From Halomonas sp. M20 (GTDB lineage: Bacteria > Pseudomonadota > Gammaproteobacteria > Pseudomonadales > Halomonadaceae): a stretch of 64,000 bases of DNA. This document shows positions 15,727 to 57,281 of the stretch, in pieces. Within the stretch, counting starts at the first letter, position 1. Each line of letters starts with the position of its first letter. The translations under genes and the position numbers were made by a program. Below the pieces are notes generated by a model. It was not told the origin of the DNA. It searched no databases and saw only the letters and a program-made list of their open reading frames with translations. The stretch spans positions 868,001 to 932,000 of the forward strand of contig NZ_JACNMQ010000001.1 in NCBI RefSeq assembly GCF_020622265.1, written 5' to 3'.

Positions 15727-16908
15727 ATGGGCAAATTAATGAAGAATCTTTGGCGTGTATTGAAGCGCCCGCCGGTGCATATCGGCCTGGGCGTCATCGT
15801 GTTATTCAGCTTCATCGGCGGGATCGTCTTCTGGGGCGGTTTCAATACGGCCCTGGAAGTGACCAATACCGAGGAGTTCTGCGTCAGCTGTCACGAGATG
15901 GGCGATAACGTCTATCAGGAGCTGCAAACCACCGTGCACTGGGAAAACCGTACCGGCGTACGTGCCACCTGCCCGGATTGTCATGTGCCGCACAACTGGA
16001 CGGACAAGATCGCGCGCAAGATGCAGGCCAGCAAGGAGGTCTGGGGCGCCATCTTCGGGACCATCGATACCCGAGAGAAATTTCTCGACAAGCGCCTGGA
16101 GCTTGCCCAACACGAATGGGAGCGCTTTTCCGCCAACAAGTCCCTGGAGTGTCGTAATTGCCACGACTACGACAGCATGGACTGGGATGCGATGTCCGAC
16201 GAGGCTGCGCGTTTCATGAAGCGCGCCGCGGAAAAGAATCAGAGCTGCCTGGATTGCCACAAAGGCATCGCCCACGAATTGCCCAAGCAGATGAACTTCA
16301 AGAACCCCATGCTGGCCAGGCTCGAACAGCAGGCTCAAGGCGTGGGCCTCGACGAAGGTGAAACCTATTACACCGTCAAGCCAGTCACACTCTATGTGGA
16401 CGAGGCGCTGACCGAACGCGCCGGTGTACTCGAATCCGCCAGCGAGGTGACGATCCTCGAAGCTCAAGGCGACAAGTTCAAGCTCGCGATCGACGAGTGG
16501 CGCAAGGCCAAGGGCTTCGGTCGTGTGCTCTACGAGGACTTCGGTCAGAACATCACCAGCGCGGTGCTCGAGAAGGAAACGGCCCAGAACGAGGCATTGT
16601 TCACCAGCGGCGAAGAGAAAATCGATGACCTGACCGGGTTGCCCTGGGTCAAGGTCGAGGCGCAGTTCTGGACCGACACCAAGGCGTTCCTCTCCTCCCG
16701 GGATGAGCTCTGGAACTACGCCAGCGAAACCTACGGTGCCAGCTGCAGCATCTGCCATACCGAACCGGCGCCAGCGCACTTCGATACCAATACCTGGCCG
16801 GCAATGTTCGCGGGCATGGTGGGCTTCACCAACATGGATGCCCAGACCCAGGACCTGGTACTGAAGTATCTGCAGAAGCACTCATCCGATTACGCTGGCG
16901 AGCATTGA
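15727..16908 (+). CDS. torC: pentaheme c-type cytochrome TorC
   Basis: A 393-residue quinol-oxidising cytochrome of the NapC/NirT family. It has one N-terminal membrane anchor (about 17-40) and five CxxCH heme sites: CVSCH, CPDCH, CRNCH, CLDCH and a C-terminal CSICH. The fifth heme and extra C-terminal domain distinguish TorC from tetraheme NapC; E. coli TorC has 390 residues. It passes electrons from menaquinol to periplasmic TorA. GAGG precedes the ATG. The stop lies 11 bp before the torA start. Confidence 0.96.
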
Positions 16909-16919
16909 GGCAAAGAGAT

Positions 16920-19418
16920 ATGGCAATTTCACGTAGAACCTTTCTCAAAGGCATGGCGGCGGGCGGAGCTGCCTCGTTGATCGGCCCAGGGCTATTGGCT
17001 CGCAGCGCGACGGCCAGCGTTTCGGTAGAGGGCACATGGAAGATGGCCGGCTCCCACTGGGGTGCCTTCAAGGCGCTGGTCAAGGGCGGCAGGGTGGCGG
17101 AGATCAAGCCGTTCGACGTCGATCGCTACCCGACGGACATGCTCAACGGCATCAAGGGGTTGATCTACAATCCGTCGCGCATTCGCTACCCGATGGTGCG
17201 TCTGGATTGGCTCAAGAACCGGGAGAACGGCGACCGCACCCAGCGCGGCGATAATCGTTTCGTGCGCCTGACCTGGGATTCGGCGCTGGATCTCTTCTAT
17301 GAGGAACTAGAGCGGGTTCAGAAGCACTACGGCCCCTGGGCGCTCTATGCCGGGGCCACCGGATGGCGCCAGACCGGCCAGATGCACAGCTGCGGCAACC
17401 ATATGCAGCGCGCGGTAGCGATGCATGGCCACTTCGTCAAGAAGGTCGGCGACTACTCCACTGGCGCAGGGCAGAGCATCCTGCCCTACGTGCTCGGCTC
17501 CACCGAGGTCTATAGCCAGGGCACCTCCTGGCCACTGATTCTCGATAACAGCAAGACCATCGTGCTGTGGGCCAACGACCCCTACAAGAACCTGCAGGTG
17601 GGCTGGAACTGCGAAACCCACGAGGCCTACGAGTACCTGGAGCAGCTCAAGGGCAAGATCGCCGACGGCAGCATTCGCGTCATCAGCGTCGATCCGGTGC
17701 GCACCAAGACCCAGAAGTACCTGGGATGCGAACAGCTCTACATCAACCCGATGACCGATGTCGCCTTCATGCTGGCCCTGGCGCATACCCTTTATCAGGA
17801 AGAGCTTTACGACAAGGCCTTCATCGAGGCCTATGCCCTGGGGTTCGAGCCCTTCATGGACTACGTGTTGGGCAGGGCGGAGGACAACACCGAGAAGACG
17901 CCGGAGTGGGCCGAGACTATCTGCGGCGTTCCGGCAGGCGAGATCAGGGAGTTCGCGCGGCTATTGGCCAGCGACCGCACCCAGCTCATCTTCGGTTGGG
18001 CGATCCAGCGCCAGCAGCACGGCGAGCAGCCTTATTGGATGGGGGCGGTGCTAGCCGCCATGCTGGGCCAGATCGGTCTTCCCGGCGGCGGCATCAGCTA
18101 TGCCCACCACTACAGTTCCATCGGTGTGCCGGCCTCGGGTGCCAGTGCGCCGGGTGCGTTTCCACGTAATGTCGATGCAGGTAAAACGCCCAAGTACGAC
18201 AATGCCGATTTCAAGGGCACCAACGACACTATCCCCGTGGCGCGCTGGATCGACTGCCTGCTCGATCCGGGTGGCAAGATTCAGTACAACGGTAGCGAAG
18301 TGACCTTCCCGGACATCAAGATGTGCATCTTCAGCGGCTGCAATCCCTGGCATCACCACCAGGATCACAATCGCATGAAGAAGGCCTTCCACAAGCTCGA
18401 GACCGTGGTCACCATCGATTACTCCTGGAACGCTACCTGTCGCTTCTCGGACCTGGTGCTGCCGGCCTGTACCCAGTTCGAGCGCAACGACATCGATATC
18501 TACGGTTCCTACTCCAATCGCGGTTTGCTGGCCATGCACAAGCTGGTCGATCCGCTGTTCCACTCGCGCACCGACTTCGACATCTTCACCGATCTGTGTC
18601 GGCGTTTTGGGCGACATGATGAATACGCTCAGGGCATGGATGAGATGCAGTGGGTGAAAAAGCTCTATGACGAGTGCAAGGACGCCAACAGTGTAGAGGT
18701 GTCTTCGCCCTCTGGCCCGAAAGTGCGCTTTCCGATGCCGGAGTTCGAGCAGTTCTGGCAGGATGGCTATGTCGACTTCGGCGCCGGCGACCCCTGGGTG
18801 CGCCATGCGGATTTCCGGGAGGCGCCGGAGGTCAACGCCCTGGGAACACCGTCCGGCTTCATCGAGATCACCAGCCGCAAGATCGACCGCTACGGCTACG
18901 ACGACTGCAAGGGTTATCCCACCTGGATGGAGAAAGCGGAACGCTCCCATGGCGGTCCCAACTCGGACAAGTACCCGCTGTGGCTGCAATCGGTCCATCC
19001 GGATCAACGTTTGCACTCCCAGATGTGCGAAGCCGACGAGTACCGGGCCACTTATACCGTGCAGGGCCGCGAGCCGATCTACATGAGCCCGCAGGATGCG
19101 AAAGCCCGGGGCATCGCCGACGGCGATCTGGTGCGGGTATTCAATGATCGCGGCCAGTTGCTGGCCGGCGCGCGGGTATCAAATGACTTCCCGACCGGCG
19201 TGGTGCGCATCCACGAAGGCGCCTGGTACGGGCCGGTGGATGCCAGTATTGGCGCCCTGGATACCTACGGCGATCCCAATACGCTGACCATGGACGTGGG
19301 CACCTCGAAACTTGCCCAGGCCACTAGCGCCAATACCTGCGTGGTGGAAATGGAAAGATACACCGGTGAGGCGCCGGCGGTGACGTCCTTCGGCGGCCCT
19401 CAAATGGTCGAACTATGA
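16920..19418 (+). CDS. torA: trimethylamine-N-oxide reductase TorA
   Basis: An 832-residue molybdoenzyme of the DMSO reductase family that reduces TMAO to trimethylamine in the periplasm. The N-terminus carries a classic twin-arginine signal (SRRTFLKG, Arg5-Arg6) followed by a hydrophobic stretch and an Ala-rich cleavage region. GDYSTGAGQ contains the expected Ser ligand of molybdenum, and [14 protein letters not shown] and the C-terminal dinucleotide-binding region fit bis-MGD binding. There is no iron-sulfur Cys motif at the N-terminus, as expected for TorA. The ATG at 16920 has GAGG upstream; a TTG five codons earlier overlaps the torC stop and is not favoured. torD overlaps by 4 bp. Confidence 0.96.
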
Positions 19419-20110
19419 TGCTAGACGCTCCGTCAGGCCAAGGCCTGCCCCCTCAAACCCAATGCGAGCTGTGGCATGAGCGGACCCTGTTGTGCCGCTG
19501 GCTGTCGACCCTGCTCGCCAAGGAGCTCGACGAGGTAACGCTCAAGGCGTATCTGCAGGGCGAGGCCGAACCGCTACTCGAGCTATTGCGGGACCATGCG
19601 CAGTTAACGCCGTTGGTCGAGCGTTTCAATCAGGCCTTGAACGCGCTGCGGCTATTCGAGCAGCCACGGCTCGAACTGGCCGCGGATTTCGCCACGTTGT
19701 TTCTCATGGACGGGCGCACCTCGGCACCTCCCTATGCATCGCTCTACCAGCCCGGCCAGGCGCTGTTTCATCAACAGCCCACCGAGCGCATGGAAATGCG
19801 ATTGAGGGCTGCCGGCTACGATGTGGTCAAGGACTTCGGCGAACCCGCGGATCATCTCGCGGTGATGCTGGACTATCTCGCCACGGGCTATGAACGGCTT
19901 GGTGAAGCGTCCAGCGACGCGGAGTGCGAAGAGATCAAGGGTGGCCTAGTACAGTTCGTCGATGAAGAACTCACGCCCTGGCTACCCACCTTCGCCCAGC
20001 GTTGCCAGCAGATTGATACGGCCAGCGATTTCTACCCGGCGCTAGCGCAGCTGGTGGCCGGCTACTGTGCCACGTTATCGACTCAGAGTGGTTGCCGCTC
20101 TTCCATTTGA
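19415..20110 (+). CDS. torD: TorD, TorA-specific chaperone
   Basis: A 231-residue all-helical cytosolic chaperone that binds apo-TorA and its twin-arginine signal, helping cofactor insertion before export. [14 protein letters not shown] is the conserved TorD/DmsD motif, and [20 protein letters not shown] fits the conserved substrate-binding region. The start overlaps the torA stop in ATGA, so translation is probably coupled. An alternative ATG two codons on (19418) cannot be excluded. The gene closes the operon before a terminator. Confidence 0.94.
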
Positions 20111-20138: not shown

Positions 20139-20170
20139 GCCAGCGTGCTTTCCACGCTGGCATTTTTTTT
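20139..20170 (+). terminator. terminator of the torECAD operon
   Basis: A 9-bp stem (GCCAGCGTG with CACGCTGGC) closes a 5-nt loop and is followed by A and eight T. Confidence 0.92.
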
Positions 20171-20254
20171 GCTGTCTGATAAGTAGCGAAGCGATCCATC
20201 TCTTCAACGACTACAGTAAGGTCATGTCAGTAAAACTGTTTGGGTGCCGGAGCC

Positions 20255-21433
20255 ATGGATTTCAACGATTATCGACTCACGCTTCGTCAGCATATGGCCG
20301 GCAAGGAATGCCCTTTTCCGGAAGTCGAATTCCAACGTCGCCACAAGGCCGTACTCAAGGCCATGGAAGCGGCGAATCTGGATGCACTGCTGCTCACTGC
20401 GCCCGCCGACATCTTCTATCTCACCGGCTACAGCACGTTCGAGGTCTCGGTGCATACCGCATTGGTGTTCACTGCACATCATCTGGTGCTTCAGGTGCCT
20501 TCCATCGAAACCGGGCCGGCGGTGGCCTGCACCCATGTCGAGGATATTCGTGGCTATCGCTGGGAGAACGTCGATGAAATTCTCGAACCGCTGACGGAGG
20601 CACTTCACGAAGCAGGCACCAACGTCGGCGTAGACCCCTGGCATGGCTCATTGCGTCATAGTGTCATGAGTGGCTTGCAATGGCGGTTGCCGGAACACCG
20701 TTTTATCGATGCCGCCAATCTTTTGCAGGAGATTCGTATCGTCAAATCCGCGGCGGAAATCGAATGTCTGATCGAAAGCGCCCGAATCACCGGTCTGGGT
20801 ATCGAGGCGGCAGCGAATGCAGTGCGTGCCGGAGCCACCGATAGCGAAATTGCCGGTATCGGTGCTCAGGCACTGCATGCCGCCGGCAGCGAATTCATGA
20901 GCATGCAGCCAATCGTCGTTACCGGGCCACGCAGCGCCGTGATCCATCTCAATCACCAGCGACGAGAAATCGCCCAGGGCGAGCCGGTATTCCTCGAGTT
21001 CGGCTCCGCCTGGAAGCGTTATACCGCACCGATGATGCGTACCGTGGTGGCCGGGGAGCCGACATCGCGCATGCATCAGGTATTCGACACTTGTCGCCGT
21101 ATTTACGACGCCATGCTAGAGGAGATGCGACCGGGCAAGGATTTCGACGCCGCCGCCCGAGCCGCCGAGCAAGCCCTGGCGCCGTTGGCTTCGGAGGTGT
21201 TTCATTCCGGTGTGTTCGGTTATGCGGTGGGCGCCCAGTTCCCGCCTTCCTGGGTCGAGGGTTCGGGGTTCATCGCGCGTGGTCAGCATCGTCAGTTCGA
21301 GGAGAACATGATCTTTCACCTGCCGCTTTGCCTGCGTATTCCCGGCGAGTGGGGTATCGGCTGCAGCGATACCGTACGGGTGACCGAAAGTGGTGCCGTA
21401 CCGCTTACCCGCAACCCCTGGACGCTATCCTGA
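20255..21433 (+). CDS. M24-fold hydrolase lacking metal ligands (creatinase/ectoine hydrolase-like)
   Basis: A 392-residue two-domain pita-bread protein: a creatinase-type N-terminal domain (DALLLTAPADIFYLTGYSTF) and an M24 catalytic domain. In true aminopeptidases P five residues bind metals; here the corresponding segments read LEFGSAWKRYTAPMMRT, GYAVGAQFPPSW and GCSDTVRVT, so the Asp, His and Glu ligands are replaced. That pattern is typical of creatinase and ectoine hydrolase (DoeA/EutD), which work without metal. A compatible-solute role suits a halophile, but doeB or other ectoine genes are not adjacent. The start is uncertain: this ATG lacks a good ribosome site and an in-frame GTG lies at 20240. 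Confidence 0.72.
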   Translation: MDFNDYRLTLRQHMAGKECPFPEVEFQRRHKAVLKAMEAANLDALLLTAPADIFYLTGYSTFEVSVHTALVFTAHHLVLQVPSIETGPAVACTHVEDIRGYRWENVDEILEPLTEALHEAGTNVGVDPWHGSLRHSVMSGLQWRLPEHRFIDAANLLQEIRIVKSAAEIECLIESARITGLGIEAAANAVRAGATDSEIAGIGAQALHAAGSEFMSMQPIVVTGPRSAVIHLNHQRREIAQGEPVFLEFGSAWKRYTAPMMRTVVAGEPTSRMHQVFDTCRRIYDAMLEEMRPGKDFDAAARAAEQALAPLASEVFHSGVFGYAVGAQFPPSWVEGSGFIARGQHRQFEENMIFHLPLCLRIPGEWGIGCSDTVRVTESGAVPLTRNPWTLS

Positions 21434-35600: not shown

Positions 35601-35677
35601 AGGACCATAGCTCAGTTGGTTAGAGCGCCACGTTGACATCGTGGAGGTCAGCGGTTCAAATCCGCTTGGTCCTACCA
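35601..35677 (+). tRNA. tRNA-Val (anticodon GAC), copy 1
   Basis: A complete 77-nt cloverleaf with encoded CCA. The acceptor arm pairs AGGACCA with TGGTCCT, the anticodon arm is CCACG-TTGACAT-CGTGG with anticodon GAC, and the T arm is AGCGG-TTCAAAT-CCGCT. It reads valine codons GUC and GUU. Confidence 0.97.
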
Positions 35678-35719: not shown

Positions 35720-35796
35720 AGGACCATAGCTCAGTTGGTTAGAGCGCCACGTTGACATCGTGGAGGTCAGCGGTTCAAATCCGCTTGGTCCTACCA
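35720..35796 (+). tRNA. tRNA-Val (anticodon GAC), copy 2
   Basis: Identical in all 77 bases to the first copy, 42 bp after it, and again with encoded CCA. The pair is surely co-transcribed and ends at the terminator that follows. Confidence 0.97.
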
Positions 35797-46244: not shown

Positions 46245-48338
46245 TCATTGCTTGTATTCACCGGTTTGAGCAACGTCGCTGAGGCTTTCGAGTAGCTTGC
46301 GGGTGGTGTCGTCCTCGAAAGCGCTGGAGGGCGCGTGACAGGGTAGCCAGACATGAAAGGTAGCGCCTTGGCCAAGAGTGGAGCTCACGCTGATATCGCC
46401 GCCGCCTCGCCTCAGGATGCCGGCGCAGATTGCCAGACCAAGCCCGGAGCCCGCCTCACGGGTCGTAAAGAAAGGATCGAAGATACGCGTCTGTAGATGT
46501 TCGGGGATGCCGGGACCTTGATCGCTGACATCGATGCATACCCCGGGGGCGGCGTATCGGTCGCTATCCTGGGTGGTGAGAACGATGCGCTGACCTTCAC
46601 TGCCGGCTTGCACGGCATTGAGAATCAGATTGACCAATACCTGTTGCAACTGAGCGCTATTGCACTCCACCTGGCGTTCTGCACGGCCCTTCAGGATTAG
46701 ACGTTGATCGTGTTTGTCGATGGTGTGACGCACGAGGGGCTCGATACTGGCGACGATCGCATTGACATCCTGGCATTGGAGCATGGGGCGCGAATGCCCC
46801 AGGCGAGACTGCCCTTGATGAGAGTAGCGCAGCAAGTTGTCAATCAAGGCCCGAATGCGCTCCACCTGGGCGATGATGATATCGATCTCTTCCTTGACCG
46901 GTGCAGCGTCGTTACCCAACTGCTGCTCGATGAGTTCGACATGACCCAGGATCACTGCGGCAGGATTGTTGATCTCGTGGGCGATGCCGGCGGTCAGTTC
47001 ACCCAGGGTGGCGAGTTTTTCCTGGGTCAGCAGCCGAGTTCGCGCCTGTTTAAGCAGGAGAATGTGCTGTTCGAGCGCGCGGGTCTTTTCTCTCAAGGAG
47101 TGAGTGCGTTCATCGACCCGCTGTTCGAGCTCGACGGCAGCACGGCGCAGTGCGTTCTGATGGGTTTCGAGACGATCAAGCATGGCATCGAACTCCCGTG
47201 CTAATGCCGCCAGCTCGTCATGGCTGCCAATTTCGCCGATACGCAAATGATTGTCTTCGCGGACGTCGCGAATGATTCGGTGCATACGCTTGATTGGCGC
47301 CACCAGGCGTTCGACGCCCTGCAGCACGAGCCCCAGGGAGAGCAGGGTGACCAGGGCCAGAACGATGACTATCTGCAGCAGGGTCTCCCGATACAGACGA
47401 GTGAAGGGGGCCTCGGGGTAGCCCGCATAGATCATGCCGATGCGCTTGCCTCGAATGCTCGACAGTGCCTCGTAGCCGGCTACATACCAGTCGCTGACCA
47501 CGTAGGCCCGGTCGATAAAGCGCTTCCCGTGTTCGAGTACCTGCTGGGCTACCTGATTGGAGACTCGGGTGCCAATAGCGCGCTCGCCACTGTGCAGACG
47601 CACATTGGTCGCGACTCTAACGTCCCCAAGAAACAGCGTGACCGTGCCTTCGCTGTTTTCCGGCAGGGTGCCTGGCGCATAGAGAAGATCCCGAATGTCA
47701 TCCACGAGTGCTGCATCCCGGTTGAGCAGGCGCCCGCTATCGAGCACGAGTTTTACGCGGCCATCCTGGTCTACAAGCGGGTAGAGAACCCGAGATACCA
47801 GTCCGTTGCGTTCGACTTGACGGGCGGTCGCCTGTGCACGAGGGGTGGCCCTCAAGGCCATTCGCGCCCGGTCGGTAAGCAGTGTATCTATGACGTTCAA
47901 GCGCTCTGGCGGTAACGCATCGAATCCTGCAACGGTGTCGCCTTGAAGCACAGGCTCCGCCACCTCGGCGCCTAGTTGTGCCGTCAACTCGTCCGGTGAT
48001 AACAGGCGTAGCCAATCGAGCTCATTGGCGGTGCGGATCTCTGCGAGAACCTCGGCATGGGAAAGCGAGCCACTACCGTCCAGCGCGGTCGCCAGGGCAT
48101 GGCTGCCCGCCAGTTCCGCCAAGCGCTCTCGCTGTTGTTCGACCAGACTGTCGAGGAGGCGGCTGGCCACAGCCAGATCCGCATGCACTTTCATGTAGAG
48201 CTGTCGATCGCTGTAGGTACTGGTCCAGTAATGGGTCAGTCCCACCAGGGCCAGACTGAAAAGCAGCAATGGCATGCAGGCCATCCATAACAGTCGTCGC
48301 CGGACCGATGCGTCCAGCCAGCCCCGCACGGTTCTCAC
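46245..48338 (-). CDS. sensor histidine kinase with periplasmic Cache domain
   Basis: A 697-residue membrane kinase: TM1 at about 15-37, a long periplasmic sensor whose second part (GTVTLFLGDVRVATNVR ... RAYVVSDWYVAGYEAL ... IGMIYAGYPEAPF) fits an sCache_3-like fold, TM2, HAMP, a coiled coil, HisKA with the phosphorylated His in AGIAHEINNPAAVI, and a catalytic domain with DQGPGIP and GSGLGLAICAGI. The HEINNP box is typical for kinases paired with NtrC-type regulators. It follows the response-regulator gene by 51 bp. The ligand is unknown; the genomic context points to oxyanion or cofactor status. Confidence 0.93.
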   Translation of the reverse strand: MRTVRGWLDASVRRRLLWMACMPLLLFSLALVGLTHYWTSTYSDRQLYMKVHADLAVASRLLDSLVEQQRERLAELAGSHALATALDGSGSLSHAEVLAEIRTANELDWLRLLSPDELTAQLGAEVAEPVLQGDTVAGFDALPPERLNVIDTLLTDRARMALRATPRAQATARQVERNGLVSRVLYPLVDQDGRVKLVLDSGRLLNRDAALVDDIRDLLYAPGTLPENSEGTVTLFLGDVRVATNVRLHSGERAIGTRVSNQVAQQVLEHGKRFIDRAYVVSDWYVAGYEALSSIRGKRIGMIYAGYPEAPFTRLYRETLLQIVIVLALVTLLSLGLVLQGVERLVAPIKRMHRIIRDVREDNHLRIGEIGSHDELAALAREFDAMLDRLETHQNALRRAAVELEQRVDERTHSLREKTRALEQHILLLKQARTRLLTQEKLATLGELTAGIAHEINNPAAVILGHVELIEQQLGNDAAPVKEEIDIIIAQVERIRALIDNLLRYSHQGQSRLGHSRPMLQCQDVNAIVASIEPLVRHTIDKHDQRLILKGRAERQVECNSAQLQQVLVNLILNAVQAGSEGQRIVLTTQDSDRYAAPGVCIDVSDQGPGIPEHLQTRIFDPFFTTREAGSGLGLAICAGILRRGGGDISVSSTLGQGATFHVWLPCHAPSSAFEDDTTRKLLESLSDVAQTGEYKQ

Positions 48339-48389
48339 ATCAGGCTCTTGGCTTTGAATTCTTTAACATGCTTCTTCACATCGAATGCC

Positions 48390-49748
48390 TCATGTTGAAC
48401 TCTGCCAAGCCGCAAGTTTACGATCAAGGGTCTTGCGAGAGATCCCCAAGCTGCGAGCCGCCCGAGACTTGTTGCCGTCATTGGCCTCAAGAACCGCCAG
48501 CAAATGATGCTTCTCCAGTACCTCGATCGTCCAGTCGAGAGGTACATTGGGGGCAGTGTCATCATGTTTTTCAGTGGTGCTGTCTTCGAGCAGCTCCCGA
48601 GGAAGCCTGCCAAGCAGAATGCAGCGTTCGATGAAGTTCTTGAGTTCGCGGATGTTGCCAGGCCAGGAGTAACGAGCCATGCGTTCAAGATCGGCATGTT
48701 GCCAAGGGAGTGCCGTCAGTCCCAACTCCTTGGATAGGTGTTGCGAGAAATGATGGGCGAGCAGCGCTATATCATCGGGTCGCTCCCGTAGCGTGGGCAG
48801 CCTGATCGTCAATATGTTAAGGCGGTAATAAAGGTCCTCTCGAAAGCGGCCGCTGGCAACTTCCTGTTCCATGTCGCGATGGGTGGCGGTGACGATGCGC
48901 ACATCCACTGGCTGTTCCTGCTCGCTCCCCACGGGGCGAATTCGCTTGGACTCTATGACTCTTAGCAGCTTGGCCTGCATGGCCAAGGGCATTTCGGCGA
49001 TTTCATCGAGGAATAGCGTGCCGCCATCGGCGTAGGTGAACAGGCCTTCGCGTGCCTTGACTGCGCCGGTGAAGGCGCCTTTGACATGCCCGAACAGCTC
49101 GGACTCGATCAGCTCACTGGCGACTGCACCGCAATTGAGGGGCACGAAGGCGCCCAAGCGACGGGATAGACGGTGCAGGTCCCGGGCGGCCAGCTCCTTG
49201 CCAGTACCCGATTCGCCGGTAATCATTACCGCGGAGGGGGTGGGGGCGACACGCTCGATGATTGCCTGAACCTCGCGAATGGCAGGGCTGTTGCCTAGCA
49301 TGCCGCCTTGAGCGGAGTGTCGCTGCGTCGTTTCCCGGCGTAGAACGAAGTTTTCGCGGGCCAGGCGGCGACGTTCTAGGCAACGGTCCACGGCGCTGAG
49401 CAATTGCTCGAGACGAAACGGCTTCATGATGAAGTCGCTGGCGCCCACTCTTAGCGCATGGATGGCCATTTCAAGGTCTGCGTAGGCGGTCATGAAGATG
49501 ATGTCGCTACGCCGATCGGTTTCCAATGCTTCGTGCCATTCGATACCGCTACGATCCGGTAGGCGGACATCCACCAGCAACAAGTCGAAATGCAACCGCT
49601 GGCGCAGTGCTTCCGCATCCGCCAGAGTGCCGGCGGTTTCGAGCATGGCGAAGCGCGGCGATAACGCTTTGCTCAGATAACGCTGCATGCCAGGCTCGTC
49701 ATCGACGATCAGTATTGATGCGGTGGGTAGTTCACTAGCAGCGGTCAT
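48390..49748 (-). CDS. NtrC-family sigma-54-dependent response regulator
   Basis: A 452-residue activator: a receiver with phospho-acceptor Asp in [13 protein letters not shown], a sigma-54 AAA+ domain with Walker A GESGTGKE, the sigma-54-contacting GAFTGA loop in [13 protein letters not shown], Walker [10 protein letters not shown], and a Fis-type HTH ([20 protein letters not shown]). All elements needed to open sigma-54 promoters are present. It is divergent from tupA, whose upstream region carries a -24/-12 promoter, and it is first in an operon with the kinase. Confidence 0.95.
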
Positions 49749-49880
49749 TCAGGCAACCCTCCACCGAGCGAGTCAGTTTGTCCCGATTTGGGTCGATGTG
49801 ATGCACTTTAAATGCGTCCTTGATTTTTTTCATGGTAAAGAAGGCGATTTTAAAGGGCAATCCACCGGTATAATGAGAAT

Positions 49881-49897
49881 AGGCATGTTACTTGCAA
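49881..49897 (+). promoter_or_regulatory. sigma-54 (-24/-12) promoter upstream of tupA
   Basis: AGGCATGTTACTTGCAA has GG and GC spaced by exactly 10 bp and matches TGGCACG-N4-TTGCA in all but two positions. Transcription would begin near 49907, about 28 bp before the tupA start. A divergent sigma-54 activator gene begins about 130 bp away. Confidence 0.72.
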
Positions 49898-49934
49898 GCC
49901 AAGGGTTCAGGAACGCAAAGGAAAAGGAACCTCA

Positions 49935-50798
49935 ATGAACTTACCTGCTACTTTACGAAACGCCGCGATTATTCTAGGCGCTACGCTACTGACGTCACCG
50001 GTGCTAGCGGTGGACAACGAGATCGTTCGACTGGCGACTACCACCAGCACCTATAACTCTGGGCTGCTGGACGAGCTGCTGCCTCGGTTCGAAGCCGAAC
50101 ATCCCTATCAGGTTCAAGTCATCGCCGTGGGCACCGGCAAGGCGCTACGTATGGGCCAGGACGGCGATGCAGACCTGTTGATGACCCACGCACCGGCAGC
50201 AGAAAAGGCCTTTGTCGATGCGGGTTATGGCATCGAGCCCGAGGGTGTGATGTACAATGACTTCATCGTTGTTGGCCCGGAGAGTGATCCGGCCAGTATT
50301 CAAGGTCTCGAAGAGGCTACCCAGGCGTTCAAGCAGATTGCCGATAGTGACGCGCTATTCGTTTCTCGGGGAGATGATTCCGGCACGCACAAGAAAGAGC
50401 TTGCCCTATGGCGGTCAAGTGATATCGAATCCGGCTTCGAGGGCTATCGGGCCGTGGGCCAGGGTATGGGCAAGGTATTGCAGATGGCAAGCGAACTCCA
50501 GGGCTATACGCTGACGGATCGTGGCACCTGGCTTGCGATGCAGGACAAGTTGGACTTGAGCCTTTTGATGCAGGGCGATCCCCGTTTGTTCAATCCCTAT
50601 CAGGTGATTCTGGTCAATCCCGAACGCTATGAAGATCTCAATACCGAGGGCGCGCGTGTCTTGGCTGAATGGCTGACTTCTGAAGAAGGACAGCAGGCAA
50701 TCGATGAATTTCGTCTCGAAGGTGAGGCACTTTTTCACGCCAGTGCCGGCGAAGGCGTATCGCCGCAGCAGGGCGTGAGTACCGGTGCGAGCCAATGA
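49935..50798 (+). CDS. tupA: tungstate ABC transporter binding protein TupA
   Basis: A 287-residue periplasmic binding protein with a cleavable signal (LLTSPVLA). LATTTSTYNSGLL and the ligand-site SRGDDSGTHKKE match TupA; molybdate-binding ModA lacks these. TupA binds tungstate with very high affinity, also molybdate in some relatives (WtpA, TupA variants). AAGGAAC precedes the ATG. It heads tupABC. Confidence 0.93.
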   Translation: MNLPATLRNAAIILGATLLTSPVLAVDNEIVRLATTTSTYNSGLLDELLPRFEAEHPYQVQVIAVGTGKALRMGQDGDADLLMTHAPAAEKAFVDAGYGIEPEGVMYNDFIVVGPESDPASIQGLEEATQAFKQIADSDALFVSRGDDSGTHKKELALWRSSDIESGFEGYRAVGQGMGKVLQMASELQGYTLTDRGTWLAMQDKLDLSLLMQGDPRLFNPYQVILVNPERYEDLNTEGARVLAEWLTSEEGQQAIDEFRLEGEALFHASAGEGVSPQQGVSTGASQ

Positions 50799-50813
50799 GG
50801 ATAGCTGATAGCG

Positions 50814-51521
50814 ATGCCTGAACTACTCGACTCGACTCGGGCAGCCTTGATACTGCTGATTTCCCTGGATCCGAGTCTGTGGGAGATCATCGGCGTCTCG
50901 TTTCGGGTATCGCTGACCGCCATGGTGCTTGCCATCCCGCCGGCATTGCTGATCGCTCTTGCCCTGGCGCGTCTTGCGTTTCCCGGGCGCTGGCTGTTGA
51001 TTTCCCTGGCCAATACCATGATGGCAGTGCCTACCGTGGTGGTAGGGCTCATGCTGTTCATGCTGTTATCCCGCAGCGGTCCATTGGGGGAGTGGCGATT
51101 GCTGTTCACTCAGCCGGCCATGGTGATCGGCCAATGGATACTGGCCATTCCCTTGCTGATTGCCATGCTGCACGCGGCCTTGCAGGGAATCGATCAGCGT
51201 GCCTGGGAGACCGCACGGCTGCATGGTGCCGGGCGCGTAGCCGCTCTTTGGCGCTTGCTTGGAGAGGCGCGCTTTGGCGTCATGGCGGCGATCGTGGCCT
51301 CCTTCGGGCGGATCATCGCCGAAGTAGGCAGCGCCGTCATGGTGGGAGGGAATATCGAACACTTCACTCGCAATATCACCACGGCGATTGCGTTGGAAAC
51401 CCTCAAAGGGGAGTACGCCCAGGGTATCGCGCTGGGTCTGGTGCTGTTGGGGCTGGCGCTGATACTCAACCTGATGCTGGGCATTCTGCGAGGGCGAGGT
51501 CAGCAGACCTTGAGTTCATGA
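50814..51521 (+). CDS. tupB: tungstate ABC transporter permease TupB
   Basis: A 235-residue inner-membrane permease with about five helices. The ABC coupling loop reads ETARLHGAGRVAALWRLLGEARFGV, and AEVGSAVMVGGNIEHFTRNITTAIALET is the conserved TupB stretch. It starts 15 bp after tupA; tupC follows closely. Confidence 0.93.
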   Translation: MPELLDSTRAALILLISLDPSLWEIIGVSFRVSLTAMVLAIPPALLIALALARLAFPGRWLLISLANTMMAVPTVVVGLMLFMLLSRSGPLGEWRLLFTQPAMVIGQWILAIPLLIAMLHAALQGIDQRAWETARLHGAGRVAALWRLLGEARFGVMAAIVASFGRIIAEVGSAVMVGGNIEHFTRNITTAIALETLKGEYAQGIALGLVLLGLALILNLMLGILRGRGQQTLSS

Positions 51522-51532
51522 CGAAGGAGAGC

Positions 51533-52207
51533 ATGCTCGAAATCAATCGGCTTTCCCATGGTTTCTCGGCCGAGCCCCTGTGGACGATCGATCATCTGCA
51601 CTGGTCGGGCCAGGATATGGTGCATCTGCTGGGGGATAACGGCAGCGGCAAGACAACGCTACTGAGAATACTGGCAGGACTGGACGTGCCTTGTCAGGGT
51701 AGCGTGCGCTGGCGTCTCGATCGGCAGTGGCAGCGCCCACCTTGTCCGGCTCGGGTGATTTATCTGCACCAAACGCCGTACATGTTCGATGTCAGCGTGT
51801 TCGACAATCTCCGTCTGGCGGCCCGCTGGTACGGGCTAGCGCGCCGCGATAGCCTGATGCGCGTGCGCCGTATGCTGCACTGGTGCGGTCTCGAGCAGCA
51901 GGCGCGACAACGTGCTCGTTCGCTCTCCGGCGGCGAGCGCCTGCGTCTGGCCCTGGCCCGGGCCTGGCTGCTGCAGCCCCGAGTCCTGCTCCTGGACGAG
52001 CCGACAGCCAACCTGGATGCTCAAGCCATCGCTGATGTGGATAGTCTGGTGGCGGATCTGGTGCGCGAGGGGTGTGCCGTCATCCTCAGTGCCCACCATG
52101 CAAGCGTGCTGACCGAGCGCTGCCAGCGCCGGTGGCAACTCTGCGACGGCCTTTTGTGGGAAAGCACGACGAACGCCTCCTTCATGGCCGAGCGCCTCCT
52201 GCGCTGA
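51533..52207 (+). CDS. tupC: tungstate ABC transporter ATPase TupC
   Basis: A 224-residue ABC ATPase with Walker A GDNGSGKTT, signature LSGGERLRLALARA and Walker B VLLLDEPTANLD. AAGGAGAGC lies just before the chosen ATG at 51533; an ATG at 51518, overlapping the tupB stop, is the alternative. It has no C-terminal regulatory (TOBE/Mop) domain, in contrast with ModC. Confidence 0.92.
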   Translation: MLEINRLSHGFSAEPLWTIDHLHWSGQDMVHLLGDNGSGKTTLLRILAGLDVPCQGSVRWRLDRQWQRPPCPARVIYLHQTPYMFDVSVFDNLRLAARWYGLARRDSLMRVRRMLHWCGLEQQARQRARSLSGGERLRLALARAWLLQPRVLLLDEPTANLDAQAIADVDSLVADLVREGCAVILSAHHASVLTERCQRRWQLCDGLLWESTTNASFMAERLLR

Positions 52208-52298
52208 GTCGCTAAATCTCGCCTGACACTGATCTTGATCATGCCATCCGCATGCCAGGAAGGTTATGCTGGGTGCTGGTCATCAATCACGGATTTCC

Positions 52299-52898
52299 AT
52301 GACTCAGGACGATATCACCCTACTCGTATTGGCCGGTGGGCAAGGTCGCCGCATGGGCGGTGTGGACAAGGGCTGGACACGCCTGCACGACAAACCCTTG
52401 ATATTGCATGTGCTATCGCGCCTGGAGGGGCAGACACGCGGGGTGTTGATCAATGCCAACCGCAGTCTCGATGCCTATGAGCAGCTTGGCTATCCGGTCA
52501 TCACCGATATCGAAGGTGACTTCAAGGGCCCTTTGATGGGGATTCTCAGCGGATTGACCGCCGCCTCGACGCCCTGGGTACTGGTCGTGCCTTGCGACAC
52601 GCCGGCGCTACCGAAAGATCTGGTAACGCGTATGATCGATGGCATCGGGGAGCGGGATATCGCCGTGGCCCACGATGGAGAGCGGGCGCACCCGGTGGTT
52701 GCCCTGATGCGAAGCGATCTGGCGCCGGATCTGCGCGAAGCACTGGCGGCCGGGGAACGTAAGATCGACCGCTGGTACGCGCGTCATCACTGGTGTCACG
52801 TGGATTTCAGCGATCAGCCGGAAGCATTCACCAACCTCAACAGCCCTCAAGACAAGGCGAATCTGAGCCAGCGCCTCGTGGGCGATGGGTCGACTTGA
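52299..52898 (+). CDS. mobA: molybdenum cofactor guanylyltransferase MobA
   Basis: A 199-residue enzyme that adds GMP to molybdopterin, giving the MGD form needed by enzymes such as TorA. The nucleotide-binding LVLAGGQGRRMGGVDKGW is the signature, and ANRSLDAYEQLGYPVITD and VVPCDTPALP are conserved. It starts about 90 bp after tupC. Confidence 0.95.
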   Translation: MTQDDITLLVLAGGQGRRMGGVDKGWTRLHDKPLILHVLSRLEGQTRGVLINANRSLDAYEQLGYPVITDIEGDFKGPLMGILSGLTAASTPWVLVVPCDTPALPKDLVTRMIDGIGERDIAVAHDGERAHPVVALMRSDLAPDLREALAAGERKIDRWYARHHWCHVDFSDQPEAFTNLNSPQDKANLSQRLVGDGST

Positions 52899-53075
52899 CA
52901 CAGTCAGGTAAACTCATGGTAGCAACGTGCTGATTACTCGGTGATTTCTAGATTTTATTCGCTGTTTGCATGCGGGTTTCGGTACGGCGATTGCCTCTAA
53001 TGAGGATACGCTGGCTCGCGAATGCACCAATTTGCGCTAAAAACTTGCCGTTATAGAACGCGATTGAAAAACATC

Positions 53076-53648
53076 ATGACACTCGATCTTGCTAATGAAA
53101 CATTGCCCTTGCTGGGTATCGCCGCCTGGAGTGGGACAGGAAAAACCACGCTGCTCGAGGCCTTGCTACCGCGTCTGGCCGAACGCGGAGTGCGTGTCGC
53201 GGTCATCAAGCACGCTCACCACGGCTTCGACGTGGATCAGCCTGGCAAGGACAGCTACCGAATGCGCGCCGCCGGTGCGGCCCCGGTGCTGGTCGCCTCG
53301 AAAGCACGCTTCGCGCTGATGATGGAAACACCGAATCGTACGGAACCCGACCTTGCCATGCTGATCGACCAGGTCAGGCCGCTGCAGCCGAATCTCGTGT
53401 TGATCGAAGGCTTCAAAGCCTGGCCCGTGCCCAAGCTGGAACTGTTTCGTCCCGTGCTTGAAAAACCGTTATTGGCGGAGAGCGATGTCTGGGTAAAAGG
53501 CGTGGCAAGTGACGAAGCCTTGACGTTGCCGGAAGGCGTGGAAGCTCTCGATCTCAATGATCTTGATGCACTGACCGATTACGTGGCGGCCTGGCCGGAG
53601 CAGTGGCCACGGCGGCGCCAGCCGCGCAAGACAGGAGTTTCGCCATGA
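53076..53648 (+). CDS. mobB: molybdopterin-guanine dinucleotide biosynthesis adaptor MobB
   Basis: A 190-residue P-loop GTPase that assists MobA. Walker A is AAWSGTGKTTLLEALL; KHAHHGFDVDQPGKDSYRMRAAGA and LVLIEGFKAWPVPKLEL are the family motifs. The ATG is preceded only by an A-rich stretch; an upstream in-frame start at 53022 would add 18 residues. moeA overlaps its stop by 4 bp. Confidence 0.93.
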   Translation: MTLDLANETLPLLGIAAWSGTGKTTLLEALLPRLAERGVRVAVIKHAHHGFDVDQPGKDSYRMRAAGAAPVLVASKARFALMMETPNRTEPDLAMLIDQVRPLQPNLVLIEGFKAWPVPKLELFRPVLEKPLLAESDVWVKGVASDEALTLPEGVEALDLNDLDALTDYVAAWPEQWPRRRQPRKTGVSP

Positions 53649-54904
53649 GCCTTTCCTGTTTCGAGCTGGGCGAGCGTATGCTCAGCATCGATGAGGCGTT
53701 GACCGCTTTACGAGAGCTGACGCCACGAGCGCTTGAAAGTGAAATTATACCGTTATTTTCATCGCTGAATCGGGTTCTGGCGGAAGATGCGGTATCCCCT
53801 ATCGATGTACCGCAGAATACCAATGCGGCAATGGATGGTATTGCCCTAAGCTGGCCAGCCAGCACCCAGACGCGATTCGCGCTGCAAGGAGACGTGCTTG
53901 CCGGTAGCTGCTTTGAAGGCCGCCTTGAGCCCGGCCAGGCAGTGACCATCACTACCGGCGCGCCACTGCCGCAAGGCGCGGATACCGTCATCATGTCCGA
54001 ACAGCTGCACATGCAGGAAGATGGCGCATCGCGTTGGGTCGAGATAGCGCAGGCAGACCGGGTGCAGCAAGGGCAGAATGTACGCAGGGCAGGGGAGGAT
54101 ATCCCCCGGGGGACGACGGCACTGGAGGCTGGAACGCGCTTGAACCCGCAGCATCTGGGGTTGCTTGCATCGCTTGGGATGGGTGAGGTGCGAGTCGCAC
54201 GTTGCCCACGAGTTGCCATCTTCTCCACCGGTGATGAAGTGACCGCGCCAGGAGAGGTATTGCCTCCGGCGGGTATCTTCGACTCCAATCGTTTTTCTCT
54301 GCGGGGGCTATTGACTCGACTCGGCTGCGAGGTAGTCGATTTAGGCATTCTCAAAGACGATTTTGTCAGCATCAAAAATACGCTGGAGACTGCAGCGCAG
54401 ACAGCGGACATGGTCATCACCAGCGGTGGCGTCTCCGTGGGTCAGGCTGACTGGACCCGGAAGGCGCTGGACGACACCGGGCGGCTCGGCTTCTGGCGTA
54501 TCGCCATTCGCCCTGGTAGACCCCTGGCATTCGGCACCCTGGGGGAGCGCAATACTCCCTTTTTCGGGCTGCCGGGTAATCCGGTGGCGGTTATGGTGAC
54601 TTTCCTGCAGTTTGTGCAGCCCTTGCTGCGCACCCTGCAGGGTGAGCACCAGTGGCAACCCCGTCGTCTGACGGCGATCGCCGACGAGCCGCTAAAAAGT
54701 CGTGAGGGGCGGGTCGATTTTCTACGCGGCATCTACCGCTGTGATGAACAAGGACGCCTGCACGTCAGCATGACCGGTCGCCAAGGCTCGGGGATTCTAT
54801 CCTCGATGACGGCGGCCAATTGTTTGATCGAGATCGAGGCGACACGCGCCGAAGTGGCGCAAGGTGAAACGGTGACTTTACAACCCTTTGGGGAGCTGAC
54901 ATGA
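53645..54904 (+). CDS. moeA: molybdopterin molybdenumtransferase MoeA
   Basis: A 419-residue enzyme that inserts the metal into adenylated molybdopterin. [63 protein letters not shown] and [18 protein letters not shown] all fit. AGGAG lies upstream; the start overlaps mobB in ATGA. No mogA or moaB gene, needed for the adenylation step, is in this cluster. Confidence 0.95.
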
Positions 54905-55782
54905 GCCTGACGCATCTTAATTCTCGTGGCGAGGCGCATATGGTGGACGTCGCCGACAAGACGGAAACCCGCCGTGAAGCGGTGGCCGGTGGACGAATTC
55001 ACATGCGCCCGGAAACCCTGGCACTGCTAGCCGAGGGGGGCATGCCGAAAGGCGATGTGCTGGCCACGGCACGTATTGCCGGTATACAGGCAGCCAAACG
55101 AACGTCTGAATTGATTCCGCTGTGCCATGCCTTGGCGCTGTCCAAGGTAAGTGTCGATTTCATGCTCAACGAGGCTGATGCCAGTGTCGATGTGACTGCC
55201 ACTTGCCGTTTGAACGGTCGCACCGGGGTCGAGATGGAAGCATTGACGGCTGTGTCGGTGGCCTGTCTGACCCTTTATGACATGTGCAAGGCGGTGGACA
55301 AGGATATGAGCATTGAAGGAATACAATTGCTCTCCAAGACCGGTGGCAAGTCCGGCGATTATCAGCGATCCCTCGATGAAAACCGACCGGTTGGCGCATC
55401 TTCCACGCAGCCCGATGCCTTTGCAGAAGATGCGATGGCTTCCAGGAGCGAGCAGCTCGATATTGCCCCTATCGTGACGGGTAAATTCTTCGAGGGCAGC
55501 GTTAGTGTCTCGCTCGGAGAAGAGCGCACCAGCGTCAGTGTGAAGTGTCTTGCAGAGTTGCGTGAACGCCTTGGCGTCAGTGATATCAACGTCCCGCTTA
55601 CGGCGCTTCTCGAGCCTACGATTGGCGGGCTCAAGAGCGCGCTAGAGCAACAGGATGAGCGCTTCGCTTTACTGCGCGAACAGCGTGTATTATGTGCTGT
55701 CAATCAGGTGATGAGCGCTGAAGATACGCTGTTGACTGCAGGCGATGAAGTCGCTTTTTTTCCACCGGTGACCGGGGGATGA
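54901..55782 (+). CDS. MoaC-MoaD fusion protein
   Basis: One uninterrupted 293-codon frame encodes two cofactor proteins. Residues 1-160 are MoaC, cyclic pyranopterin monophosphate synthase, with [38 protein letters not shown] and KSGDY, including both catalytic Lys. Residues about 210-293 are MoaD, the sulfur-carrying small subunit of MPT synthase, ending [10 protein letters not shown] with the Gly-Gly that is thiocarboxylated. A 50-residue linker joins them. An internal ATG at 55435 has no good ribosome site. The gene overlaps moeA and moaE by 4 bp. The separate proteins are the norm (E. coli MoaC 161, MoaD 81 residues). Confidence 0.9.
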
Positions 55783-56237
55783 ACATGATCAAGGTACAGA
55801 CGCAGCCTTTCGATGTGGGCGAGCAACATGGAGCCTTGCTCACGGGGCGCACCGACATTGGCGCGGTGGTATGTTTTACTGGGCTGGTGCGCGATTTTAA
55901 TGAGAGCCCCGAAGTTCAGGGGCTGTCTCTCGAGCATTATCCCGGCATGACCGAACAGGCACTTGCCGATATTGTCGCTGAAGCCGAGCAGCGCTGGACA
56001 CTGCAAGGCGTACGCTTGATTCATCGTGTCGGTCATCTCGAACCGGGCGACCCGATCGTGCTGGTGGCGGTTGCCAGCGCCCATCGCCGCAGTGCATTCG
56101 AGGCATGTGATTTCATCATGGATTACCTCAAGACCCAGGCGCCCTTCTGGAAAAAAGAGCATACGACCGGGGGGCACTACTGGGTATCGGAACGTGACTC
56201 CGACAAGCAGGATGCCAAGCGCTGGGAGGTGTCATGA
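55779..56237 (+). CDS. moaE: molybdopterin synthase large subunit MoaE
   Basis: A 152-residue catalytic subunit that builds the dithiolene of molybdopterin with sulfur from Moa[58 protein letters not shown] (Lys of the active site) are diagnostic. It is coupled to the fusion gene (ATGA), as MoaD and MoaE usually are. Confidence 0.95.
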
Positions 56238-57223
56238 CACAGTTGATCGACGATTTTCAGCGCGTGGTGCGCTATGTCAGGATTTCCGTTACCGATCGCT
56301 GCGATTTTCGCTGTGTCTATTGCATGAGCGAGGAGATGACTTTTCTACCTCGCGCGCAGGTTCTCACCCTGGAAGAGTTGGCGACCGTCGCACGAGCTTT
56401 CACCGAGCTGGGCGTGGAAAAGATTCGACTCACTGGTGGGGAGCCACTGGTTCGTCGTGGAATCGATGAGCTGGTGACGGAAATCGGCCAGTTGGAAGGC
56501 CTCAAGGATTTCGCCATGACCACCAACGGTGCCGGGCTTGTCAAGCATGCCCCCGCACTGCGCCAAGGCGGATTGCAACGACTGAATATCAGCCTGGACT
56601 CTCTGGACTCAGTGCGTTTCAAGCAGCTGACTCGCACTGGCGACCTGAACAAGGTAATCGACGGTCTACACGCGGCCCAGGATGCCGGCTTCGAGCGAAT
56701 CAAATTGAACGCCGTTATCATGAAAGGCAGAAACGATGATGAGATACTCGATCTAGTGGAATTCGCGCGTCGCGAATCCATCGATATCAGCTTTATCGAA
56801 GAGATGCCTTTAGGGGATGTGTCGGATCATTCTCGTGGCGAGACCTACTGTTCCAGCGATGAAGTCCAGGCCATCATCGAATCCCGTCACGCCTTGATGC
56901 CAACTACTGAATCCACACTGGGACCTTCCCGTTATTTTCGTATGGCGGATAGCGTTTCGAAGATTGGCTTCATCTCGCCTCATAGTCATAATTTCTGCGC
57001 TACCTGCAATCGTGTACGAGTCACCGTGGAAGGGCGTCTCCTTCTTTGTCTGGGCAATGAGCACTCTGTCGATTTACGCGAGACGTTGCGGCGCTACCCC
57101 GGCGATATCGAAAGACTCAAGACACGTATTGTCGACGCAATGGCACTTAAACCAGAACGCCACCATTTTACGACGGATGGCGACGTGCAAGTCGTGCGTT
57201 TCATGAATATGACGGGTGGATAA
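56234..57223 (+). CDS. moaA: GTP 3',8-cyclase MoaA
   Basis: A 329-residue radical-SAM enzyme for the first step of molybdopterin synthesis. The N-terminal cluster motif is CDFRCVYC, the C-terminal cluster has [18 protein letters not shown], and the chain ends in MTGG, the Gly-Gly tail needed for activity. [12 protein letters not shown] and MTTNG fit SAM binding. It is the last gene of the operon; a terminator follows. Confidence 0.96.
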
Positions 57224-57251: not shown

Positions 57252-57281
57252 AACAGCGATCAATGATCGCTGTTTTTTTTG
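57252..57281 (+). terminator. terminator of the Tup-Moco gene cluster
   Basis: AACAGCGATCA and TGATCGCTGTT form an almost uninterrupted palindrome followed by eight T. Confidence 0.92.

Follow-up and report, generated by a model that had tools for sequence, protein, structure and literature searches.

A candidate formate-sensing switch for tungstate uptake, cofactor synthesis and formate dehydrogenase in marine and salt-loving bacteria

Introduction

The uptake of molybdenum and tungsten is usually taken to be regulated by intracellular detection of the metal. Here we analyze a locus of Halomonas sp. M20 in which a sensor histidine kinase and an NtrC-type response regulator lie next to the tungstate transporter genes tupABC and a series of genes for pterin cofactor synthesis. 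The locus is part of a stretch of 64,000 nucleotides (NZ_JACNMQ010000001.1, positions 868,001-932,000 of the forward strand; assembly GCF_020622265.1), referred to as the window, in whose numbering positions are given unless another locus is named. An earlier sequence-only reading had suggested that the two proteins control tungstate import and cofactor assembly through sigma-54, that the kinase detects an oxyanion or cofactor-related signal outside the cell, and that TorA and similar enzymes are supplied. The proposed control is supported by conserved linkage and conserved sites across many genomes, and further comparisons point to formate as the probable signal and to formate dehydrogenase as the likely client. 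Four features go beyond that reading: a sigma-54 box before tupA, a palindromic site upstream of it, a second pair of site and box before mobB, and a Cache domain in the kinase.

The tup locus of Halomonas sp. M20

The genes for the regulator and then the kinase form an operon on the minus strand, which diverges from tupABC-mobA-mobB-moeA-moaCD-moaE-moaA on the plus strand (Table 1). Genes from mobB onward are joined by ATGA overlaps of 4 base pairs (bp) and tupB and tupC overlap as well, while gaps of 58 and 123 bp precede mobA and mobB, respectively. A hairpin scan returned 14 candidates, compared with 10.1 in shuffles; the one after moaA is the strongest and the rest have at most 7 pairs. 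Re-examination of the sequence thus left gene content, order, divergence, overlaps and terminator as they had been described. At Rfam gathering thresholds the whole window gave only two matches, both tRNAs, and no riboswitch, including the molybdenum cofactor (Moco) motif before the operon. The two tRNA genes, at 35601-35674 and 35720-35793, score equally. The genome holds one copy of rpoN.

With a receiver, a sigma-54 AAA+ domain carrying GAFTGA and a Fis-type helix-turn-helix (HTH), the regulator belongs to the NtrC family of sigma-54 activators. It stays below the cut-offs of the NCBIfam equivalog models for AtoC (392.5/714 bits), NtrC (372.7/558.6) and ZraR (334.2/760), and under the cut-off in all 25 regulator models shown out of 107 matched. 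TupA scores 224.5 bits with the NCBIfam TupA model (cut-off 400) and strongly matches PDB entries 3lr1 and 5my5; TupB reaches 175.4 bits with its own model (cut-off 320). MoaC and MoaD are encoded as one protein, a single open frame in 28/28 relatives in which both were found side by side, and none of the 10 NCBIfam models matched by it names such a fusion.

Table 1. Genes and putative control elements of the tup locus (window positions).
Feature	Position	Strand	Basis or remark
Sensor histidine kinase	46245-48338	-	Pfam: periplasmic sCache_3_3, HAMP, HisKA, HATPase_c
Coding stretch of kinase residues 172-322 (sCache_3_3 core)	47373-47825	-	holds R241, T244, T257
NtrC-type response regulator	48390-49748	-	Pfam: receiver, sigma-54 AAA+ with GAFTGA, Fis HTH
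Putative regulator site, GAGTCA-N3-TGTCCC	49770-49784		one mismatch to GGGWCA-N3-TGWCCC; same in close relatives
Possible degenerate second site	49790-49804		20 bp beyond the first site
Putative sigma-70 promoter of the regulator-kinase operon, TTGCCC-N17-TACCAT	49832-49860	-	by eye; same form in Chromohalobacter
Predicted sigma-54 -24/-12 box AGGCATGTTACTTGCA before tupA	49881-49896	+
tupA, periplasmic tungstate-binding protein	49935-50798	+	PF12849, NCBIfam, PDB matches
tupB, permease	50814-51521	+	NCBIfam
tupC, ATPase	51518-52207	+	Pfam
mobA	52266-52898 (alternative start 52299)	+	Pfam
Putative second regulator site GGGTCGACTTGACAC	52887-52901		two mismatches; overlaps mobA 3' end
Predicted second sigma-54 box CGGTACGGCGATTGCC before mobB	52980-52995	+	score 18/22; 93 bp from site
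mobB	53022-53648 (start possibly 53076)	+	Pfam, NCBIfam
moeA	53645-54904	+	Pfam
moaC-moaD fusion	54901-55782	+	Pfam, NCBIfam
moaE	55779-56237	+	NCBIfam
moaA	56234-57223	+	NCBIfam
Terminator-like hairpin after moaA, 10 pairs	57252-57274	+	hairpin scan

Conservation of the linkage

Among the 121 genomes of the family set, 69 encode TupA (E<=1e-30) and 33 the kinase (E<=1e-60). A divergent tupA about 4 kb from the kinase gene was found in 30 of these 33, and the other three (G074, G084 and G105) have no tupA match. When named genomes were searched with the alignment of the sensor, 204 relatives of the kinase came up, and the best 80 of these were used for analysis. They come from Halomonas, Modicisalibacter, Chromohalobacter, Cobetia, Oceanospirillum, Neptunomonas, Amphritea, Marinospirillum, Nitrincola, Neptuniibacter, Marinobacterium, many Shewanella, Paraferrimonas, Leucothrix and others. 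The kinase-regulator-tup order is conserved among them: tupA adjoins the regulator gene in divergent orientation in 78 of the best 80. The exceptions are L175 and a Sedimenticola locus (L166, 7559-9975); in the latter the pair faces mobB, not tupA, and does so with a perfect regulator site and a strong sigma-54 box. One kinase, that of L031, has an in-frame stop and was excluded from protein alignments.

The opposite case is provided by the family genome G038 (locus L035), where cupin-HTH, tup and moa genes keep their usual order and the two-component pair is absent from between them. The 300 bp upstream of its tupA contain no good sigma-54 box (best 17/22), and DUF3305, used below as a marker of the formate dehydrogenase (fdh) operon, is missing as well.

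Sites at the tup promoter

For the boxes and sites, 76 tup intergenic regions were scored; L120 and L143, missed by the position filter, and L166 and L175, where no tupA stands beside the pair, were left out. A sigma-54 box scoring at least 20/22 is present on the tup strand in 69/76 regions, on the reverse strand in 0/76, and in 0.4% of mononucleotide shuffles. The palindrome GGGWCA-N3-TGWCCC with at most one mismatch occurs in 34/76 regions (0.2% of shuffles), roughly 160-360 bp upstream of tupA. Tandem sites are common, 21 bp apart in Chromohalobacter and 30-31 bp apart in Neptunomonas and Shewanella.

The specificity of the palindrome was assessed on genome scale. Eight Halomonadaceae genomes, selected because their tup site is perfect, hold 16 perfect copies, compared with 3 for the reversed control, all in one genome; each of the eight has a perfect copy at tup and four have no other. 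Ten Oceanospirillales genomes, nearly all selected because tup or fdh has a site that is perfect or close to it, hold 19 (reversed control 3); by our assignment 8 of these belong to tup, 5 to fdh and 6 to other places. Taken alone, neither element is informative in the genome of strain M20, since the site at one mismatch or fewer occurs in 47 places (15 for the reversed control) and the strict box in 31 (control 21). Together they are informative, tup being the only one of the 31 strict boxes with such a site within 300 bp upstream. These patterns make the palindrome the likely binding site of the regulator, and we consider it highly probable that the pair controls tup through sigma-54.

Elsewhere in the window, a strict sigma-54 box (TGGCATTTTTTTTGCT, 20158-20173) lies upstream of a gene at 20240-21433 whose best NCBIfam match, ectoine hydrolase, is below cut-off.

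An internal promoter for the cofactor genes

A second site and box were found in the gap between mobA and mobB, which was compared in 15 Halomonas, Modicisalibacter and Chromohalobacter sequences, the window included. A box scoring at least 18 occurs in 15/15 (reverse strand 2; shuffles 9%), a site at two mismatches or fewer in 14/15 (shuffles 3.2%), and site and box in order in 14/15 (shuffles 0.1%), spaced by 83 or 93-94 bp. Outside Halomonadaceae a good box or site in this gap was seen only at L122, L150 and L183 among the loci examined. Because site and box recur before mobB, the cofactor genes very likely belong to the same regulon as tup.

The formate dehydrogenase operon

Downstream of the kinase gene, Amphritea (L125), Neptunomonas (L124) and Neptuniibacter (L134) have fdhD, a HTH regulator, a site with a box, and a series encoding DUF3305, DUF3306, an iron-sulphur (FeS) protein and a chaperone, with fdhA visible in L125 and L134. 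Marinobacterium (L177) has the same start of the DUF3305 series about 9 kb from the start of the kinase gene. The fdh genes of these four loci were named from translations. In strain M20, copies were identified by Pfam as DUF3305, DUF3306, FdhD, molybdopterin oxidoreductase and HTH_17 with PBP_like. The regulator with HTH_17 and PBP_like adjoins fdhD in M20 (L238 4774-5703, C14) and in Amphritea L125, and similar reading frames are present in L124, L134 and L177; we take it to be possibly an excisionase-type tungstate/molybdate regulator.

The operon was looked for in 25 of 81 genomes (strain M20 and 24 of the 80 named ones), with its first gene, DUF3305, as marker, and was found in 25/25 compared with 0/14 control genomes. 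Upstream of DUF3305 a box scoring at least 19.5 is present in 20/25 (reverse strand 3/25; dinucleotide shuffles 2.5%), a site in 15/25 with a matrix trained on tup sites only (shuffles 2.7%), and both in order in 13/25 (shuffles 0.08%). A further gap inside the operon, before the FeS gene, was examined at 13 of the 25 loci, chosen because a site had been seen there. All 13 have GG-N10-GC, beginning 84-86 bp from the start of the site as counted to its first G, and no more than 7 further matches of this kind lie at offsets 51-107 over all 13 loci. An upstream or internal pair is thereby present in 23/25 genomes; the other two, L204 and L209, have a good site with boxes of 18.5 and 17.

Gene content points the same way. 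Across the 121 family genomes tupA and DUF3305 occur together in 68, tupA alone in 1 (G038), DUF3305 alone in 0 and neither in 52 (Fisher 9e-34, phylogeny uncorrected), and all 30 genomes with a tup-linked kinase have DUF3305. Formate dehydrogenase is thus predicted to be part of the regulon with the same high likelihood as the cofactor genes, and with less certainty for strain M20 itself. Sigma-54 has been connected to this enzyme elsewhere: fdh expression is RpoN-dependent in Vibrio parahaemolyticus, with direct binding not seen (PMC9817140, which cites RpoN chromatin immunoprecipitation sequencing in V. cholerae), and formate dehydrogenases are among the predicted targets in a sigma-54 survey (PMC12316311).

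The client suggested earlier, TorA, did not fare as well. A match to the TorA of the window (E<=1e-200) exists in 6/121 family genomes and in 4/30 with a tup-linked kinase, as opposed to 30/30 for DUF3305, whose operon carries the regulatory sites, and on this distribution TorA was rejected. The window itself has a torC-torA-torD operon at 15727-20110.

The sensor domain of the kinase

The periplasmic part of the kinase is a Cache_3-type domain, sCache_3_3 (PF17202, 97.7 bits, cut-off 28.8). Residues 1-400 were modeled with AlphaFold from 37 sequences (mean predicted local distance difference test score, pLDDT, 87.6). The best Foldseek match of the model in the PDB is 8py0, a formate-bound chemoreceptor Cache domain (E 2.3e-7), and 8py1, also formate-bound, is the fifth. 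With phmmer, residues 172-322 found only 8py0 and 8py1 among PDB sequences at E<=10 (0.0012 and 0.006). PMC12501870 reports, with reference to earlier work, that R142, T145 and T158 affect formate binding in PacF, and R241, T244 and T257 of our kinase have identical spacing. These columns are R in 37/37 aligned sequences, T in 37/37, and T in 28/37 with Ser in the remaining 9. One sCache_3_3 receptor with the reported residues is likewise described as having formate for its ligand (PMC12415202). Modeled fold and residues in this way turn the interpretation away from the oxyanion or cofactor-related signal first proposed, and formate is probably what the kinase senses.

Three related loci (L053, L054 and L055) show the pair in another setting. 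These genomes have no tup or fdh matches; a related regulator-kinase pair is followed by a palindromic site, perfect or with one mismatch, and then by a gene of the MFS family, with no good sigma-54 box seen in that gap before the MFS gene. As the triad is kept beside a site and an MFS gene without tup or fdh, the wider kinase family may sense different small carboxylates.

Weighing the evidence

Several observations weigh against a formate-triggered regulon. Some concern the ligand. The match to 8py0 has a TM-score of 0.58 by target and 0.24 by query with a root-mean-square deviation of 6.5, and it is one of 50 PDB chains that reach E<=1e-3, among which Cache domains bound to different ligands are numerous. 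According to PMC8698456, Atu0526, an sCache_3_2 protein, bound formic acid more tightly after the R115A exchange although chemotaxis was abolished, so that the arginine may not serve as the binding residue in every such protein; the PacF formate site, moreover, is in the membrane-distal module (PMC12501870). The three family kinases with the MFS gene nearby, 38% identical and from another genus, keep R/T/T in genomes without tupA or DUF3305, and the one MFS protein tested from these loci passes the NCBIfam L-lactate model (332.2/320 bits), its match to the oxalate/formate family being below cut-off. The kinase may accordingly bind a different monocarboxylate, and the triad may be common to the domain as a whole. 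Other points concern the sites. Box weights and site consensus were chosen by the author after viewing 30 family loci that overlap the 76. Seven of the 76 tup regions fall below a box score of 20 (six at 17.5-19.5, one at 13.5) and 42 have no site at one mismatch or fewer; many Shewanella sites have two mismatches, and the best sites of Cobetia L121, Marinospirillum L130 and Leucothrix L156 have at least four. In strain M20, the fdh upstream region showed nothing, and the internal gap has a weak site (CGGTCAGTTTGACGC, 2 mismatches) and a weak box (AGGTTCAAAGCCTGCT); the internal fdh site of L218 is likewise weak, with 3 mismatches. The catalytic subunit of M20 has formate dehydrogenase alpha as best NCBIfam match, below cut-off (488.5/666 bits). 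Finally, another 38 family genomes combine DUF3305 with a more distant tupA and lack a tup-linked kinase, and genome and locus counts are phylogenetically non-independent.

These last 38 genomes are what speaks for a merely accidental linkage, with tup driven by other factors. Since linkage spans several families, boxes and sites are conserved, and no good box is seen where the pair is absent (G038), such an accident is hardly credible. A regulon restricted to the pair itself and tup, with cofactor genes expressed independently, would fit the two gaps before mobA and mobB and the rarity of a box or site in the mobB gap outside Halomonadaceae. Against it stand the site and box before mobB in 14/15 sequences, the ATGA overlaps, the lack of a strong terminator before moaA and the Sedimenticola pair facing mobB, which together make this restricted regulon very improbable.

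The nature of the signal leaves more room. The extracellular cue read by the kinase might be tungstate, molybdate or something linked to the cofactor, detected perhaps via TupA, with the regulator acting by the same logic; the pair adjoins a metal transporter, and some metal feedback is to be expected. Such feedback could come from the HTH_17 and PBP_like regulator beside fdhD, a candidate for that role. A small carboxylate is what the fold and residues of the sensor suggest, the fdh operon carries the sites, and G038 keeps tup without either the pair or DUF3305, all of which renders such a metal or cofactor signal unlikely. A less remote option is that lactate, acetate, pyruvate or several such monocarboxylates are sensed as a sign of fermentation products. 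The three loci with an MFS gene, the triad kept in their kinases and the L-lactate match lend it some weight; the nearest solved sensors, however, are formate complexes and the conserved client is formate dehydrogenase, and we regard this option as possible but rather doubtful. Formate as opposed to another small carboxylate is the weakest link of the formate-triggered regulon we propose.

A proposed formate-triggered regulon

On the reading we favor, periplasmic formate, or a very similar small monocarboxylate, would be sensed by the sCache_3_3 domain of the kinase, which would then phosphorylate the NtrC-type regulator. The phosphorylated regulator would bind the GGGWCA-N3-TGWCCC palindromes, known from comparative genomics, and activate the tup promoter together with sigma-54; it would presumably act in the same way at the internal mobB promoter of Halomonadaceae and at the formate dehydrogenase operon. 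The pair itself would be expressed from the putative sigma-70 promoter facing away from tupA. Where formate is present, the cell would thus take up tungstate, make the pterin cofactor and produce formate dehydrogenase, all at once. Taken from end to end, this explanation is on balance probable; with a little more reserve, we lean toward a widespread gammaproteobacterial system in which the substrate formate, and not the metal, triggers a single tungstate, cofactor and fdh regulon through sigma-54 and a dedicated palindrome. Such a switch seems to be present in many marine and salt-loving bacteria.

If the proposal is true, the supply of metal and cofactor would follow the substrate of the very enzyme in which they are used. 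The proposal would also offer a possible activator of those formate dehydrogenase operons that depend on sigma-54, and a testable ligand for an unassigned family of 204 kinase relatives. The near-perfect tie between TupA and fdh in the family would then raise the question whether these formate dehydrogenases carry tungsten.

Comparison with known systems

ModE and the Moco riboswitch likewise control molybdenum and tungsten uptake and cofactor genes, by sensing inside the cell. DVU3193 (TupR) of Desulfovibrio vulgaris is a single-protein regulator, not a two-component sigma-54 system. It controls tupABC too, according to PMC10102598. The sigma-54 activator FlgR of Helicobacter pylori affects molybdate transport by modABD through indirect repression via sigma-28 (PMC12622350). 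Two surveys of sigma-54 and regulators in Desulfovibrio contain no tungsten or molybdenum words in their main text (PMC4641369 and PMC3333781).

With NtrC- and AtoC-type sigma-54 systems our pair shares the domain order, the divergent target, the -24/-12 box and the upstream palindromes; it differs in that the regulator is below their NCBIfam cut-offs and in a target set that we did not find described. PacF (PMC12501870), Atu0526 (PMC8698456) and 8py0/8py1 are Cache_3-type sensors like the kinase, with the Arg/Thr/Thr spacing shared with PacF. Formate chemoreceptors of this type steer chemotaxis, whereas here the domain is on a histidine kinase, and the PacF site is in the distal module of a double Cache. 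Literature searches, limited to openly licensed papers, brought up neither a sigma-54 two-component system acting on tup or Moco genes, in line with the sequence-only reading, nor a formate-sensing kinase paired with formate dehydrogenase.

A functional parallel is FhlA of Escherichia coli, a sigma-54 activator through which formate switches on a formate dehydrogenase system. FhlA is a one-component protein that senses formate in the cytoplasm, whereas here a membrane kinase has a periplasmic sensor and the regulon includes metal uptake and cofactor synthesis. By Pfam, the regulator has a receiver domain in place of the N-terminal formate-sensing region that defines FhlA-type regulators. Formate control through sigma-54 is already known from FhlA.

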